Part shown: positions 4,544 to 52,881 of the stretch, one piece after another
Layout of the letters: the number at the start of each line of letters is the position of its first letter
Numbering within the stretch: the first letter of the stretch is position 1
DNA from: Methanococcoides seepicolus
GTDB taxonomy: Archaea; Halobacteriota; Methanosarcinia; Methanosarcinales; Methanosarcinaceae
DNA length: 64,000 bases
Direction: 5' to 3'
NCBI RefSeq assembly: GCF_023684405.1
Contig: NZ_JAGSOI010000004.1
Span: 1-64,000 of the forward strand
The notes under the pieces: model-generated
What the model was told of the DNA's origin: nothing
Seen by the model: the letters and a program-made list of their open reading frames with translations, nothing else
Databases searched by the model: none
Program-made: the position numbers and the translations under genes

Positions 4544-6238
4544 ATGAGCAGATTATACACTGGAATAACATTAGTTTTGTCCCTATTTATCACATTCTCA
4601 TTCATAACAGTGGCATCTGCTACCATGAATGACGAATACATAATGGAAATAAGCATTGATGAGAACCACGTCAGTTTTGCCGATCATAATGGCACAGCAG
4701 AAGGCAACTGGATATCCTTAAGCGGCGGGGAAACCTTCAAAATACCCGAACCTTTCACATTCACCTACAACGGCATAAACAGTAAGAATGCCATCATAAA
4801 AGGGAGGAACGTCACCGTTGAGCTTAACGTGGAAAACAATACGGACCACGTTATCACCTACCCCTACGACACCCACCAGATGTACGTGGCAGGATCCGGA
4901 CTGGACGATGTATCCTTCACCTTCCACGGCTCCGACCACTTCGCTAACAGAGAAGTGGACGTATATCTTTTCAACTCATCCATAGTAGACCTGAAACACG
5001 TCCTTGATGACCTCATGGAAGGAAACACAGCAAGTGCTCATGCGATCTATGACAACTCACAGGAATCAGAAGCTGTCCTTGATGGCAACGGCGACATGTC
5101 AATGACCTACAACGACATGAATCCCGGCTCCTACTCAATAATGATCATCCACACCGATGACATCACCGAAGAGAACATACTGCTCTCCGCCACTGCTTTC
5201 GAGGTCCTCGACTACAGCGCCGACCTGAGAACGACACGCAACAGCAACAACGTTCAGCTCGACATCACCGTGGAAGATGCACCCGATAAGACCTACACCT
5301 ACGGCGCCATACTCATAAAAGAAAGCGCTTATACCACCGATGTCCGCGTAGAGTTCGATGGCACCCTGAACGGATTCGATGTTCTCATGAACGGCGTTCC
5401 CATAATCGAGGGGTTCGACCTCGTGGGCATGTCCAAGGACGACATTGACGGCGCAGAATTAGAGGAATGTCTCACCGACATCTTCGGAGCAGACAACATC
5501 TCCATAGTCTACGAAGCGGTATATGGTACCAATGCAACATTATATGCAGACACCACCGGCCTTTCCGAAGGAGATTACCTCGTATTCGCAGGAGTTACCT
5601 CCGACCACGACATGGTCGCCTTTGAACAGTATGAAATGTACATCACCCAGGTAGGGATGGACCTTTTCGGAGGTCCAGGCGACGAGATAATTATCAATGA
5701 CACAAGGAACGGGATACGCGTGATCATTGGCTTGAACCAGAGCCTAACGAATGGTATGCTCCAGATCGAGAAAAGTACAACATTGCCAAATAACGTCACC
5801 CAGCCACTGTTCTACACTCCTGCAGGCTTTGCCACATTCACAGCGAATGACAACCTCAGCCAGGCAATGGCCTACGCCTACATCTACATAGACTGCCCGC
5901 ACCATTGCCTGAACGGACTTGACCCAAATGCAATGAGGTTCCACTGGTATGACGAGAACAGCACCAACTGGGTACAGCTGGAACCGGGAAACCCGCCATG
6001 CTGCCTTGAGACCGGCCAGTACAACACAGAGCACATCTGTTGCTGTTGGGCCAAAGTGACCCACTTCTCCACATACACAAGTGGTACTTACCACCCATAT
6101 GATGCAAACAAAGACGGCATGATCAGCATTGATGAGGTAAACACTACAATCGATGACTACTACGCAGGTCAAACCAGCATTAGAATGGTAAGTGAAATAA
6201 TTGATCTATACCGCATGGGTGGATCATATTGCAAGTAA
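4544..6238 (+). CDS. Secreted methanogen surface protein with EF-hand-like C-terminus
   Basis: I choose the ATG at 4544 because the preceding AAGGCGG can act as ribosome binding site and the product then begins with a standard signal peptide (MSRLYTGITLVLSLFITFSF, cleavage near VASA). An upstream in-frame ATG at 4493 would add 17 residues without a good site. The 564-aa product has repeated beta-rich segments such as YTYGAILIKESAYTTDVRVE, resembling the TIGR04279-type methanogen extracellular domain (recognition by eye). Cysteines cluster at CPHHC, PPCCLE and ICCCW. The tail DANKDGMISIDEV is an EF-hand/dockerin-like calcium loop. No C-terminal membrane anchor is visible, so it is probably released or bound by other surface proteins. 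It lies directly upstream of another exported protein. Confidence 0.75.
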   Translation: MSRLYTGITLVLSLFITFSFITVASATMNDEYIMEISIDENHVSFADHNGTAEGNWISLSGGETFKIPEPFTFTYNGINSKNAIIKGRNVTVELNVENNTDHVITYPYDTHQMYVAGSGLDDVSFTFHGSDHFANREVDVYLFNSSIVDLKHVLDDLMEGNTASAHAIYDNSQESEAVLDGNGDMSMTYNDMNPGSYSIMIIHTDDITEENILLSATAFEVLDYSADLRTTRNSNNVQLDITVEDAPDKTYTYGAILIKESAYTTDVRVEFDGTLNGFDVLMNGVPIIEGFDLVGMSKDDIDGAELEECLTDIFGADNISIVYEAVYGTNATLYADTTGLSEGDYLVFAGVTSDHDMVAFEQYEMYITQVGMDLFGGPGDEIIINDTRNGIRVIIGLNQSLTNGMLQIEKSTTLPNNVTQPLFYTPAGFATFTANDNLSQAMAYAYIYIDCPHHCLNGLDPNAMRFHWYDENSTNWVQLEPGNPPCCLETGQYNTEHICCCWAKVTHFSTYTSGTYHPYDANKDGMISIDEVNTTIDDYYAGQTSIRMVSEIIDLYRMGGSYCK

Positions 6239-31345: not shown

Positions 31346-31522
31346 ATGGAAGTAGAACTTACAGTTGATGGAAAGAACATAGAGATCAATCATTTCGTTA
31401 CAGAGATACTCGCAGCCATGACCGGCTCTTCTGTGGAGACACTCCACGGTGTCGAAGAGGACTGGAAAGAAATGACGGTCAAACTTAAGAGATCAAAGAC
31501 GGCTCACCAGAGCGAACTTTAA
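31346..31522 (+). CDS. Small conserved-looking protein downstream of moaA
   Basis: A 58-aa frame begins at ATG 31346, just after the moaA stop, with the ribosome binding site AGGAGA at about 31333. The product begins MEVELTVDGKNIEINHFVTE, then ILAAMTGSSVETLHGVEEDW, and ends KLKRSKTAHQSEL. It is short and soluble. I do not recognise the family; a role related to moaA is suggested only by position. It is too short to appear in most gene calls, but the tight spacing and ribosome binding site argue for a real gene. Confidence 0.7.
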   Translation: MEVELTVDGKNIEINHFVTEILAAMTGSSVETLHGVEEDWKEMTVKLKRSKTAHQSEL

Positions 31523-31751
31523 CGAATAGAGGGAATTGCCAATCCATCCATTCATCAACGTAGTTTAGGTTAGAACTTCTTTTCAGAATCATTGGTTCTT
31601 AAATGGCTATATATTGAGGACTTCCTAATATAATATGAGCAGTGATTGCTGGGTTCGCATGTTCCAAATCTCCTGACCACCATTATATTTTGGACAGTAA
31701 AAAATGGGAGTAGCTACCGCTATGCCAGTCTAATAAAAAGGGAGTGATATA

Positions 31752-32230
31752 TATGAAAACAAACAAATTAAGTGTTTTAGCCATTTCATTACTACTGATG
31801 ATAATGGCCGCTGGCACCGCGCTGGCAATTCACCCAGATATTGATATCAAACCAGGGTCATAGCCAAATTCCATTAATGTAAACGCCGCTGGTGAGATCC
31901 CAGTTGCAATATTGGGTTCAGACACCTTTGATGTAAACCAGATAGATCTAACTAGTGTGGTTTTTGCTGGGGTTGGACCAGTGACGTACAAGAATGGAGC
32001 CAACGCTGGATTGGTCAAGGCAGGATATGAAGATGTCAATAGTGATGGGGTTCTGGATTTGGTGCTTCAATTTAAACCGGATAAAAGTGACCTACGAGAT
32101 TCGTTTGAATTTAGTTAGATAGAGGTAAAAGGGCTTGATGGTTACCTAACTTTGACAGGTCAGCTTCTTAGTGGTGCACCCTTCGAAGGCAAGGACACAG
32201 CAAGACTTCTTCATGCAGACTGGCTCTGAT
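31752..32230 (+). pseudogene. Secreted beta-sandwich protein interrupted by two in-frame TAG codons
   Basis: An ATG at 31752 opens a signal peptide (MKTNKLSVLAISLLLMIMAA) and continues as IHPDIDIKPGS, TAG, PNSINVNAAGEIPVAILGSD, then TFDVNQIDLTSVVFAG. The end reads FEFS, TAG, IEVKGLDGYLTLTGQLLSG and a TGA. The reading frame is unbroken for about 159 codons except for the two TAG codons. The family (IDIKPGS-x-PNSIN, PVAILGSD) is common in archaeal and bacterial surface proteins. TAG would be a stop in most organisms, but methanogens of this group read TAG as pyrrolysine. I class it as a pseudogene because the sites are not known pyrrolysine positions. A shorter frame begins at 31912. Confidence 0.6.
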
Positions 32231-32576
32231 TCAACATCATAACCTATTTTTTTTCTTTTTTAATGGTTACAGAGATTGAGATTCTATAATCCAATCTAGT
32301 ATGATGAGAATCTGTCCAAACAAGAAGGATATTAGCACTGTAGAAGCACAAACTTTTAAAATTAGTGTAAAACTAACAATTTGAATTTTTGAATATTTAT
32401 TTCTCAAGATACCTATTACCCCGAAAGATTATGCACCGATTAATTTTGGATTGAAATTTTGATTTCTGATTGTGTCTTAATTTTTTTTCAAAATGCGTTG
32501 AACTATGGTTGTGCATAAGTTCCACATAACGCCGTAGTGTTTTTCATCATTACCTAGATCCCCAAGTTATTCTGAC
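32231..32576. other. AT-rich interval without a gene
   Basis: I see no coding frame here. It is low in GC with T-runs (TTTTTTTTCTTTTTT near 32250) and several stop codons in all frames. It separates two decayed secreted-protein genes. Confidence 0.5.
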
Positions 32577-33336
32577 AGTGATTGTTATGGAGTGCTCGAT
32601 ACACTCGACATCGGTGTCTTTTATGATAACAACTGCGATGGGGTTTAGAACACTGGAGATATCAATAGCCATTACAATGCCGATGTTGAACTATATGCTT
32701 TGGATGGGTGTACGTTGATTAAGCCAGCACTAGTGCCAGCACTAATTCTTAGTGATTTGTATAGGTATGAATCCGTTCCTGCGGCAAATACTTAGTAAAG
32801 ATCGTGCCAGAGGATAGTTCCTATGAAGTCAAGTGGGATTGCATCGAGGTGAAAGAAGGTGTACTACAAGAAATTAATTTTGGACTTTGCAAAGAATGTA
32901 CCCAATATTCACCAGGGTACTGGAAGAACCACCCAGATGATGGCCAGTTGAGGAGATCGAGATTGGTGGTATCACCTACACGAAGGCAGAAACCATAAGT
33001 TACATGCAGGCTCCCGTGGCAGGCGATAAGACATACACACTTTTCGAGGCACTGGTTGCCGCCAAGCTGAACGGTGGTGAATACTGTGGCTGCCCTGACA
33101 TAGCCGATATCATTGAGGCCGCTGACGCCTGGATATTTGTTCATCCTGTTGGAGTTGGAGTTGCTGCAAATAGTGATGCCTGGCAAGGATTTGGTGATGA
33201 TCTATATGAGGAGCTTGATGATTTCAACAATGGCGAGCTCTGCGATGACGATGGCGACTGTAAGTTTTGTGATGACGGTGACGAAAGCGGTGATGAAGAA
33301 AAGGACGATGACGTTCGAAAACCTAAATACAAGTAA
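32577..33336 (+). pseudogene. Decayed Cna/SdrD-like secreted protein gene
   Basis: The frame reads LDTLDIGVFYDNNCDGV, TAG, NTGDINSHYNADVELYALDG, a repeat type of SdrD B-like collagen-binding domains, then stops at TAG-TAA around 32795. A missing base shifts the frame to VKIVPEDSSYEVKWD and CTQYSPGYWKNHPDD. A second missing base near 32943 shifts again to PVEEIEIGGITYTK, MQAPVAGDKTYTLFEALVAA and a Cys/Asp-rich tail ending at 33336. The intact parental protein would be around 250 aa. Point mutations plus frameshifts show clear decay. The family occurs in surface proteins, consistent with the neighbouring amber-interrupted gene. Confidence 0.65.
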
Positions 33337-33341
33337 ATGAT

Positions 33342-33368
33342 GTGGAATCACCTTGATTCCACTTTTTT
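33342..33368 (+). terminator. Terminator after the decayed secreted gene
   Basis: GTGGAATCA (33342-33350) and TGATTCCAC (33354-33362), loop CCT, followed by TTTTTT (33363-33368). It is a perfect 9-bp hairpin with T-tract, five bases after the last stop codon, which shows that this was once an expressed gene. Confidence 0.8.
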
Positions 33369-33991
33369 ACTCCACATCCCTGTGATTATCAGGAATATGA
33401 AACAAATAACGAGAATTTTTTAAGATTACCTGAGAGAGCTCTCCTTGGTAGATGTATATACCCAGGATATCTTCACCTGTGCCCTTCTTGGCATCCAGGC
33501 CCTTAAGCCTCCTCCCTATTTTTTTATTGTCTTCCGTACACACCTCCAGGGCATCAATAAACCATTGAAAGTAGAAACAAGATGTATATTTTGTTGTATT
33601 ATTTGGTGTGTATTGATTAAGCCCATTATTGTAATAGCTTTTAGCTTATTCAATAACAGCAAATTCTCCCACTGCCATTGAAAAATGTAAAGAGATTTTT
33701 TTAAGATAATGGTTTCTAAACATAGTTTCTAAACATAGTTTCTAAACATAGTTTCTAAATTAAAGAACCTAACCTAAACTTTATAGAAAGCCTAATACCA
33801 GTTTAATTTTCTAATTATGAATTAGCTTAAAATGGATTTCGTCATACATTTACCTTATTCGTCGACCGTTAGGATATATCCAAAAACTATTTACTGGAGT
33901 ACCCTATTTACGATATCGTTCAGACATATTATTTAAAAGTTATATAAATACAGATCTATTTTTCAGACTAAAATATCACAGACTTGATCTA
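33369..33991. other. Gene-poor interval before the SulP gene
   Basis: Mostly AT-rich. The minus strand between about 33365 and 33655 stays open for nearly 90 codons and gives an unrecognised peptide (KKIGRRLKGLDAKKGTGEDI, then LGIYIYQGELSQ), with a local rise in GC. Without a start codon and a match I treat it as a possible remnant. The stretch also holds the 13-bp tandem repeat at 33712-33759. Positions 33920-33991 form the SulP promoter zone (ATTTAAAAGTTATATAAATA). Confidence 0.4.
33712..33759 (+). repeat. 13-bp tandem repeat, 3.7 copies
   Basis: The unit GTTTCTAAACATA is repeated exactly at 33712-33724, 33725-33737 and 33738-33750, followed by a partial copy to 33759. Each unit contains the near-palindrome TTTCTAAA. 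The array is about 230 bp upstream of the SulP gene and shows no associated cas genes. Confidence 0.85.
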
Positions 33992-51800: not shown

Positions 51801-52475
51801 GCCGTACTCTATGTTTTCCGCACGCTTGTAAAGGACAATATCCCATTGAACGCAGGATGTCTGAAACCCCTCAGAATAATAATACCGGAAGGATGTTTAT
51901 TGAACCCGTCCCACCCTGCAGCAGTTGCAGCAGGAAATGTGGAAACCTCACAGTATATCGTGGATACCCTCTATGGCGCACTGGGAATCATGGCAGCATC
52001 CCAGGGAACCATGAACAATTTCACCTTTGGAAACCAGGAATTCCAGTATTATGAGACCATCTGCGGCGGTTCAGGTGCAGGAGACGGATTCAATGGTGTC
52101 GATGCTGTACAGACCCATATGACAAACTCCAGAATGACCGATCCCGAAGTCCTTGAATTGCGTTTTCCGGTGCTCCTTGAAGAATATTCCATAAGGAAGG
52201 GAAGCGGAGGGGAAGGAGAATACTGCGGAGGAAATGGTGTTATCCGTAAAATGCGATTCCTTGAGGAAATGAAAGCAGCAATAATATCCTCGCACCGGAA
52301 ATATCCTCCTTTTGGTTCAAACGGCGGTTCCGAAGCGGAATGTGGTAAGAACCTGGTGATCAGGAAGGACGGAAGGACACAGGAAATGGAACCAACCGCT
52401 GAGGTGGATATGGAAGAAGGGGATGTGTTCGTGGTAGAAACTCCCGGTGGCGGCGGTTTTGGGAAAAAGGGGTGA
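48861..52475 (+). CDS. 5-oxoprolinase (fused HyuA and HyuB domains)
   Basis: 1204-aa ATP-dependent enzyme that opens 5-oxoproline to glutamate, or a related hydantoinase. The N-terminal HyuA half has the ATP-binding [10 protein letters not shown], the [12 protein letters not shown] segment and [12 protein letters not shown]. The HyuB half begins about residue 700 with [20 protein letters not shown], then [20 protein letters not shown] and GGTHLPDI. The C-terminus is GGGGFGKKG. In most archaea A and B are separate; the fusion resembles eukaryotic and some bacterial 5-oxoprolinases. The start ATG 48861 overlaps no other gene; a TTG at 48855 also opens the frame. The gene is long and intact. Confidence 0.9.
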
Positions 52476-52479
52476 TACT

Positions 52480-52770
52480 GATTTACTGAGGAAGATGATC
52501 ATTGACACGCCTTATGACGAATGGAAGAAAATGGAGATAGAATTCCTGATATATCTTCCACCATATTCCCCAGACATAAATCCAATAGAGCATATATGTA
52601 AAAGTATAAAGAGAGTTATTTCATCTATAATCATCATTGACACAAATCATATGAAGCAGCTGATATTTGATGCGTTCATCAAATATTCATCAAATATTCA
52701 TCAAAGATTAGTTTTGCAAAGAGATGGATTGAAAAGTTTGTTGATGAAGATTATAAGCGAAAAATATTAG
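52480..52770 (+). pseudogene. IS630-type transposase fragment
   Basis: The frame LLRKMIIDTPYDEWKKMEIE, then FLIYLPPYSPDINPIEHICK matches the C-terminal end of IS630-family transposases (DDE_3 fold: Y-L-P-P-Y-S-P-D-x-N-P-I-E). The catalytic Asp residues further upstream are missing because the piece starts right after the 5-oxoprolinase stop. It is closed by TAG. A tandem 11-bp repeat (TCAAATATTCA twice near 52678-52700) sits inside. It marks the left edge of an accessory island. Confidence 0.75.
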
Positions 52771-52881
52771 GTTATTGACTATAATTATGCGAACTTTGAG
52801 GGATTGGTGGGAAAGATATGAGGTGTGAGTTATGGTTTACATGTATTTGAAAAAGCAAAACTAAGCAAAAAGTGATAAAAT

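Follow-up and report, generated by a model that had tools for sequence, protein, structure and literature searches.

A 64,000-nucleotide stretch of the Methanococcoides seepicolus genome (hereafter the window) contains a gene with two in-frame TAG codons which, in all likelihood, is active and encodes a small exported protein, both UAGs of which would be decoded as pyrrolysine (Pyl) by the cell's own tRNA-Pyl and PylS. The best explanation of the comparisons described here is that this Pyl protein would be functional and fast-diversifying and would act outside methylamine metabolism.

Structure of the TAG-bearing gene

The gene occupies positions 31753..32229 of the + strand, on contig C93 of the window's own genome (G000; 2.80 Mb, genus Methanococcoides), and consists of 158 sense codons, with an ATG start at 31753 and a TGA stop at 32227-32229. 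Codons 37 and 122 are in-frame TAG codons, whereas the frame is free of internal TAA and TGA codons and of frameshifts. The first of them, TAG1 (31861..31863, +), lies in the motif KPGS-TAG-PNSIN, and the second, TAG2, lies at 32116..32118 (+). A sequence-only reading of the window had described a gene with a clean signal peptide, two in-frame TAG codons, no frameshift and a TGA end; the TAG codons, the unbroken frame and the TGA end are confirmed on the sequence, and the start is signal-peptide-like. The open reading frame is present as it had claimed, but the limits that it had given, 31752-32230, are one base off at both ends.

Inspection of the translation by eye revealed a signal-peptide-like N-terminus at residues 1-25 (MKTNKLSVLAISLLLMIMAAGTALA; 31753..31827, +), which the N-termini encoded at two homologue loci (L009 and L010) resemble. 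A Shine-Dalgarno-like sequence, GGGAGTGA (31740..31747, +), and, 3′ of the gene, a T-rich stretch that is a probable terminator (32247..32261, +) were likewise recognized by eye, and the 3′ flank is conserved up to 32416 in a second Methanococcoides species, G051 (blastn). The product is probably a small exported protein. It matched no Pfam family at E≤1, and so has no MtmB, MtbB, MttB or transposase domain; NCBIfam gave one sub-threshold chance match and nothing else, a profile search against solved structures gave 0 matches, and an AlphaFold2 model computed with the window and M. vulcani sequences had a mean pLDDT of 34. An antisense gene opposite the TAG gene was ruled out, as every antisense frame behind TAG1 has at least 3 stops. 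Under standard-code gene calling the TAG gene would end at codon 36 and be overlooked.

Pyrrolysine machinery and TAG as a stop codon

Locus L018 on contig C1 of G000 carries a tRNA-Pyl(cta) gene (5882-5953) followed consecutively by pylS, pylB, pylC and pylD. The identity of pylS was confirmed by family search and that of pylB by its radical SAM domain, while we take the two following genes to be pylC and pylD from their position and sequence type. All 11 of the Methanococcoides genomes examined have pylS, and G000 has three mtmB genes with one TAG each. The sequence-only reading had held that the gene could be read through if TAG means pyrrolysine, and that an absence of pyl genes elsewhere in the genome would speak against this; pylT, S, B, C and D are all found at L018. 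With a complete Pyl system and TAG-bearing mtmB genes in G000, a UAG-containing gene can therefore be read through in this organism. Two mtmB genes, at C69:30869-32218 and C115:64726-66075, are identical in DNA, reflecting either duplication or assembly redundancy. A further MtmB homologue without TAG, L007 (C104:4660-6009), possibly resembles MtqB of M. methylutens Q3c, a protein that contains no Pyl (PMC13044021).

As a stop codon, TAG is rare in G000, not absent. We sampled 312 kb, comprising the window and 13 other stretches of G000, in which 259 ORFs of at least 120 aa were picked greedily by length, uncurated: 4 ended in TAG, 144 in TGA and 111 in TAA. Triplet frequencies predict a TAG share of about 18%, giving a binomial P of ~1e-17 for 4/259, and the avoidance of TAG as a stop that had been noticed in the window alone thus extends to the larger sample. 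One of the four TAG-ended ORFs is pylB (L018:7268-8380), so TAG still has some use as a stop; the M. burtonii gene is known to have a TAG at the corresponding position (PMC2933860). Within the window, 2 of the 49 picked ORFs (at least 100 aa) end in TAG. One is a DDE_3 transposase fragment and the other an ORF antisense to the decayed neighbour of the TAG gene; the sequence-only reading had named a transposase fragment and an endonuclease fragment. A DDE_3 transposase fragment at 52423-52821 of the window contains two in-frame TAGs, and a squalene-cyclase-like ORF at L022:17819-18520 ends in TAG and has two further in-frame TAGs upstream of its start.

Homologues and conservation of the TAG codons

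The gene is present in 3 of the 11 Methanococcoides genomes examined, namely G000 and two other species of the genus, G002 and G051, whose proteins are 54-56% identical to that of the window. Judged by its motif and domain, the product belongs to an archaeal secreted-domain family for which we have coined the motif name IDIKPGS-x-PNSIN. A profile of the three TAG genes gave 22 matches at E≤1e-6 in 17 of 111 family genomes, the three TAG genes included. The IDIKPGS-x-PNSIN proteins of Methanosarcinaceae share the domain of the TAG gene, but none of the 19 matches outside the clade of G000, G002 and G051 (E-values, 1.6e-27 to 9.8e-7) has an in-frame TAG within the profile match; 7 of these 19 are without the motif as searched (S-x-PN). 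In a tree of 15 sequences, from which the G110 sequence (motif absent) and the other 6 motif-less matches were left out, the three TAG genes form one clade with a local support of 0.987.

TAG1 is found at the identical codon in all three clade members. Because homologues in two other genomes carry TAG at codon 37, the TAGs are more than the sequencing errors that the sequence-only reading had considered as their possible source. In the 12 other members with S-x-PN, residue 37 is C (6), F (2), W (2), E (1) or D (1), and the nearest TAG-less relative has GAG at this codon, not the CAG of the CAG-to-TAG origin that had been proposed. TAG2 falls in a stretch limited to the TAG-bearing clade, where each of the three species has a TAG within about 3 codons; the exact column is ambiguous because of indels, and in G051 TAG2 falls in another alignment column. 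A third TAG is private to G002; the corresponding codon specifies Glu in both G000 and G051.

Searching with the pattern O-P-N-S-I-N matched 9 of 111 family genomes, against 5 for a reversed control pattern, and the six matched genomes beyond the three of the clade were rejected as containing short, unrelated frames. A scan of genome contigs for relatives named Methanococcoides vulcani SLH 33 alone; one of the two patterns used read TAG as K, so that any TAG-bearing relatives would have escaped that motif. No relatives (0) were found in viral contigs. G002 also has a TAG-less C-terminal fragment of a related gene (L062; C1:686576-686693), with part of the 3′ flank in common.

Evolution of the sequence behind TAG1

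If TAG1 were a true stop, nothing downstream of it would be under selection. Behind TAG1, the pN/pS values of the three species pairs were 0.258/0.104, 0.313/0.130 and 0.297/0.181, and the share of bootstrap replicates with pN≤pS was 0.0002, 0.0002 and 0.0108, respectively; over the whole gene, pN>pS was not significant for G002-G051 (0.080). Of the six frames behind TAG1, that of the gene alone is open. Gaps in a DNA-only alignment were multiples of three, except for one pair around TAG2 (13 + 2 = 15), unlike the codon alignment, in which whole-codon gaps arise by construction. Codon usage was coding-like both behind TAG1 and behind TAG2 (0/1000 shuffles reached the observed value in each segment), and not clearly coding in the 36 codons before TAG1 (129/1000 shuffles). 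Taken together, these patterns indicate that the DNA behind TAG1 is under frame-specific selection as protein. Restart at an internal start codon is disfavoured, because a second TAG follows. The sequence-only reading had thought it more probable that the TAGs are tolerated mutations of the CAG-to-TAG type, a view at odds with the sharing of TAG1 by three species, with the selection behind it, and with the occurrence of a TAG in 3/3 species in the clade-only stretch around TAG2.

Insertion, probable transfer and the decayed neighbour

An insertion (31567..33840) that holds both the TAG gene and its decayed neighbour is absent from G067, G063, G070 and G044, which have 189 to 873 other bases in its place. 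On the left, homology to G067 reaches as far as 31566 (31493-31566 when all four relatives are considered), and on the right it begins again at 33841. Close to the right end of the insertion is a 13-base tandem repeat of 3.7 copies (33712-33759). Three-frame translation places the decayed neighbour at approximately 32571..33336 (+), with frameshifts and, before the frameshift, an early TAG at 32646-32648, as the sequence-only reading had observed. The neighbour thus has frameshifts besides its TAG, whereas the TAG gene has none.

The genus falls into two branches, one with G000 and the other with G002 and G051; identity of pylS is 96-97% within the branch of G000 and 82-86% across branches. 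Between branches, Ks is 0.17-0.19 for the TAG gene, compared to 1.64-2.39 for pylS and moaA. Considering this low Ks and the empty site in four close relatives, G000 probably acquired the TAG gene horizontally from the branch of G002 and G051. In G002 and G051 the gene is at the same locus, and its Ks between the two (0.23) is like that of neighbouring genes (0.20-0.78), while its Ka is 0.32, compared to 0.01-0.08 in six neighbouring genes. By this pairwise count, as distinct from a codon model, the fast protein change probably reflects diversifying selection.

Alternative explanations

Could the gene simply be dead, with the TAGs acting as stops and the interspecies resemblance being leftover identity? 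It occurs in few genomes and its neighbour (32571-33336) is decayed and contains a TAG. Dead genes with TAG exist elsewhere in G000, since the two copies of a DUF835 gene (L079 and L087, on C69 and C115, in non-identical surroundings) have one TAG and a frameshift each; this gene, rejected as a second Pyl protein on account of its frameshifts, has a TAG in 0 of the 7 other genomes that carry it. An open frame alone is weak evidence against decay, because 8% of free-decay simulation runs acquired neither TAA nor TGA. The TAG gene nevertheless shows neither frameshifts nor a neutral substitution pattern, its frame is kept through indels in three genomes, and decay gives no reason for an excess of pN over pS behind TAG1 in the open frame. 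The evidence taken together makes decay unlikely, and we would give a pseudogene very little chance of being the answer.

The remaining alternatives are forms of, or additions to, decoding as pyrrolysine. In a translational switch, compatible with the preferred reading, UAG1 would gate output on Pyl supply, and hence on methylamine growth, the chemistry of Pyl being irrelevant. A stop at codon 37 yields no usable product; according to a 2021 review, Acetohalobium arabaticum reads UAG as Pyl in trimethylamine-grown cells only (PMC8211752). In M. acetivorans, where a pylT deletion mutant can live on methanol, read-through in a reporter is 20-30% per UAG (PMC2933860). We found no regulatory element, however: of 26 pairs in the predicted fold downstream of TAG1, a single one is compensatory, and a PYLIS-like element is not supported. 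Moreover, a switch gains nothing from the second TAG, nor from the third in G002, and we regard it as unlikely, if less so than a dead gene. It is considerably more plausible, at a little under an even chance, that UAG is read as Pyl at positions where any residue suffices, having drifted from codons such as GAG. The variety of residue 37 in relatives (C, F, W, E or D, with GAG in the nearest), the position of the private TAG of G002 opposite Glu codons in G000 and G051, and the precedent of Thg1 in M. acetivorans (PMC2933860) all fit such neutral entry. Against it, TAG1 is kept in all three lineages though the protein changes almost half its residues. Among the 150 ungapped codons, however, the three species agree exactly at 58, so that TAG1 may simply be kept, and its identity by itself is weak evidence for selection on Pyl.

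Comparison with known pyrrolysine proteins

Like the TAG gene, the genes for MtmB, MtbB and MttB occur in genomes with pyl genes and have an in-frame TAG that their homologues share, but these are methanogenesis enzymes with Pyl in the active site, whereas the product of the TAG gene is small and probably exported. Wider use of Pyl was reportedly described in 2025 for some archaea, in which every TAG would be read as Pyl and numerous genes would contain TAG as a sense codon, as is proposed for the TAG gene. Thg1 of Methanosarcina acetivorans is, like the TAG gene, a case of UAG as Pyl outside the methyltransferases, but its TAG is described as confined to one species and not essential (PMC2933860), whereas TAG1 is common to three species. 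The amber-bearing transposases of Methanosarcina likewise combine a conserved in-frame amber codon with movement between species (PMC2933860); the TAG gene differs in having no transposase features. The Pyl proteins named in the 2021 review are limited to the methylamine methyltransferases, Thg1 and certain transposases (PMC8211752). A literature search of titles and abstracts returned no description of an exported Pyl protein.

Implications

In the preferred reading, the cell's own tRNA-Pyl would read both UAGs and a protein with two pyrrolysines would be exported. By parsimony, TAG1 would already have been present in the last common ancestor of the clade, and the simplest origin of the codon would be neutral entry from GAG. 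Pyl supply would presumably control output of the gene, because a stop at TAG1 leaves only the signal peptide and 11 residues. At the reporter's rate per UAG, two UAGs would give 4-9% full-length protein, although this figure may not hold in Methanococcoides. As a rather improbable extension, the two electrophilic pyrroline rings of the exported protein might capture amines or cross-link partners, with the gene spreading among Pyl-decoding species only. The retention of UAG in a diversifying, transferred and probably exported protein raises the question of whether Pyl serves purposes other than methyl transfer, and the gene also raises that of whether amber-coded genes may form a pool shareable among Pyl-decoding species alone.
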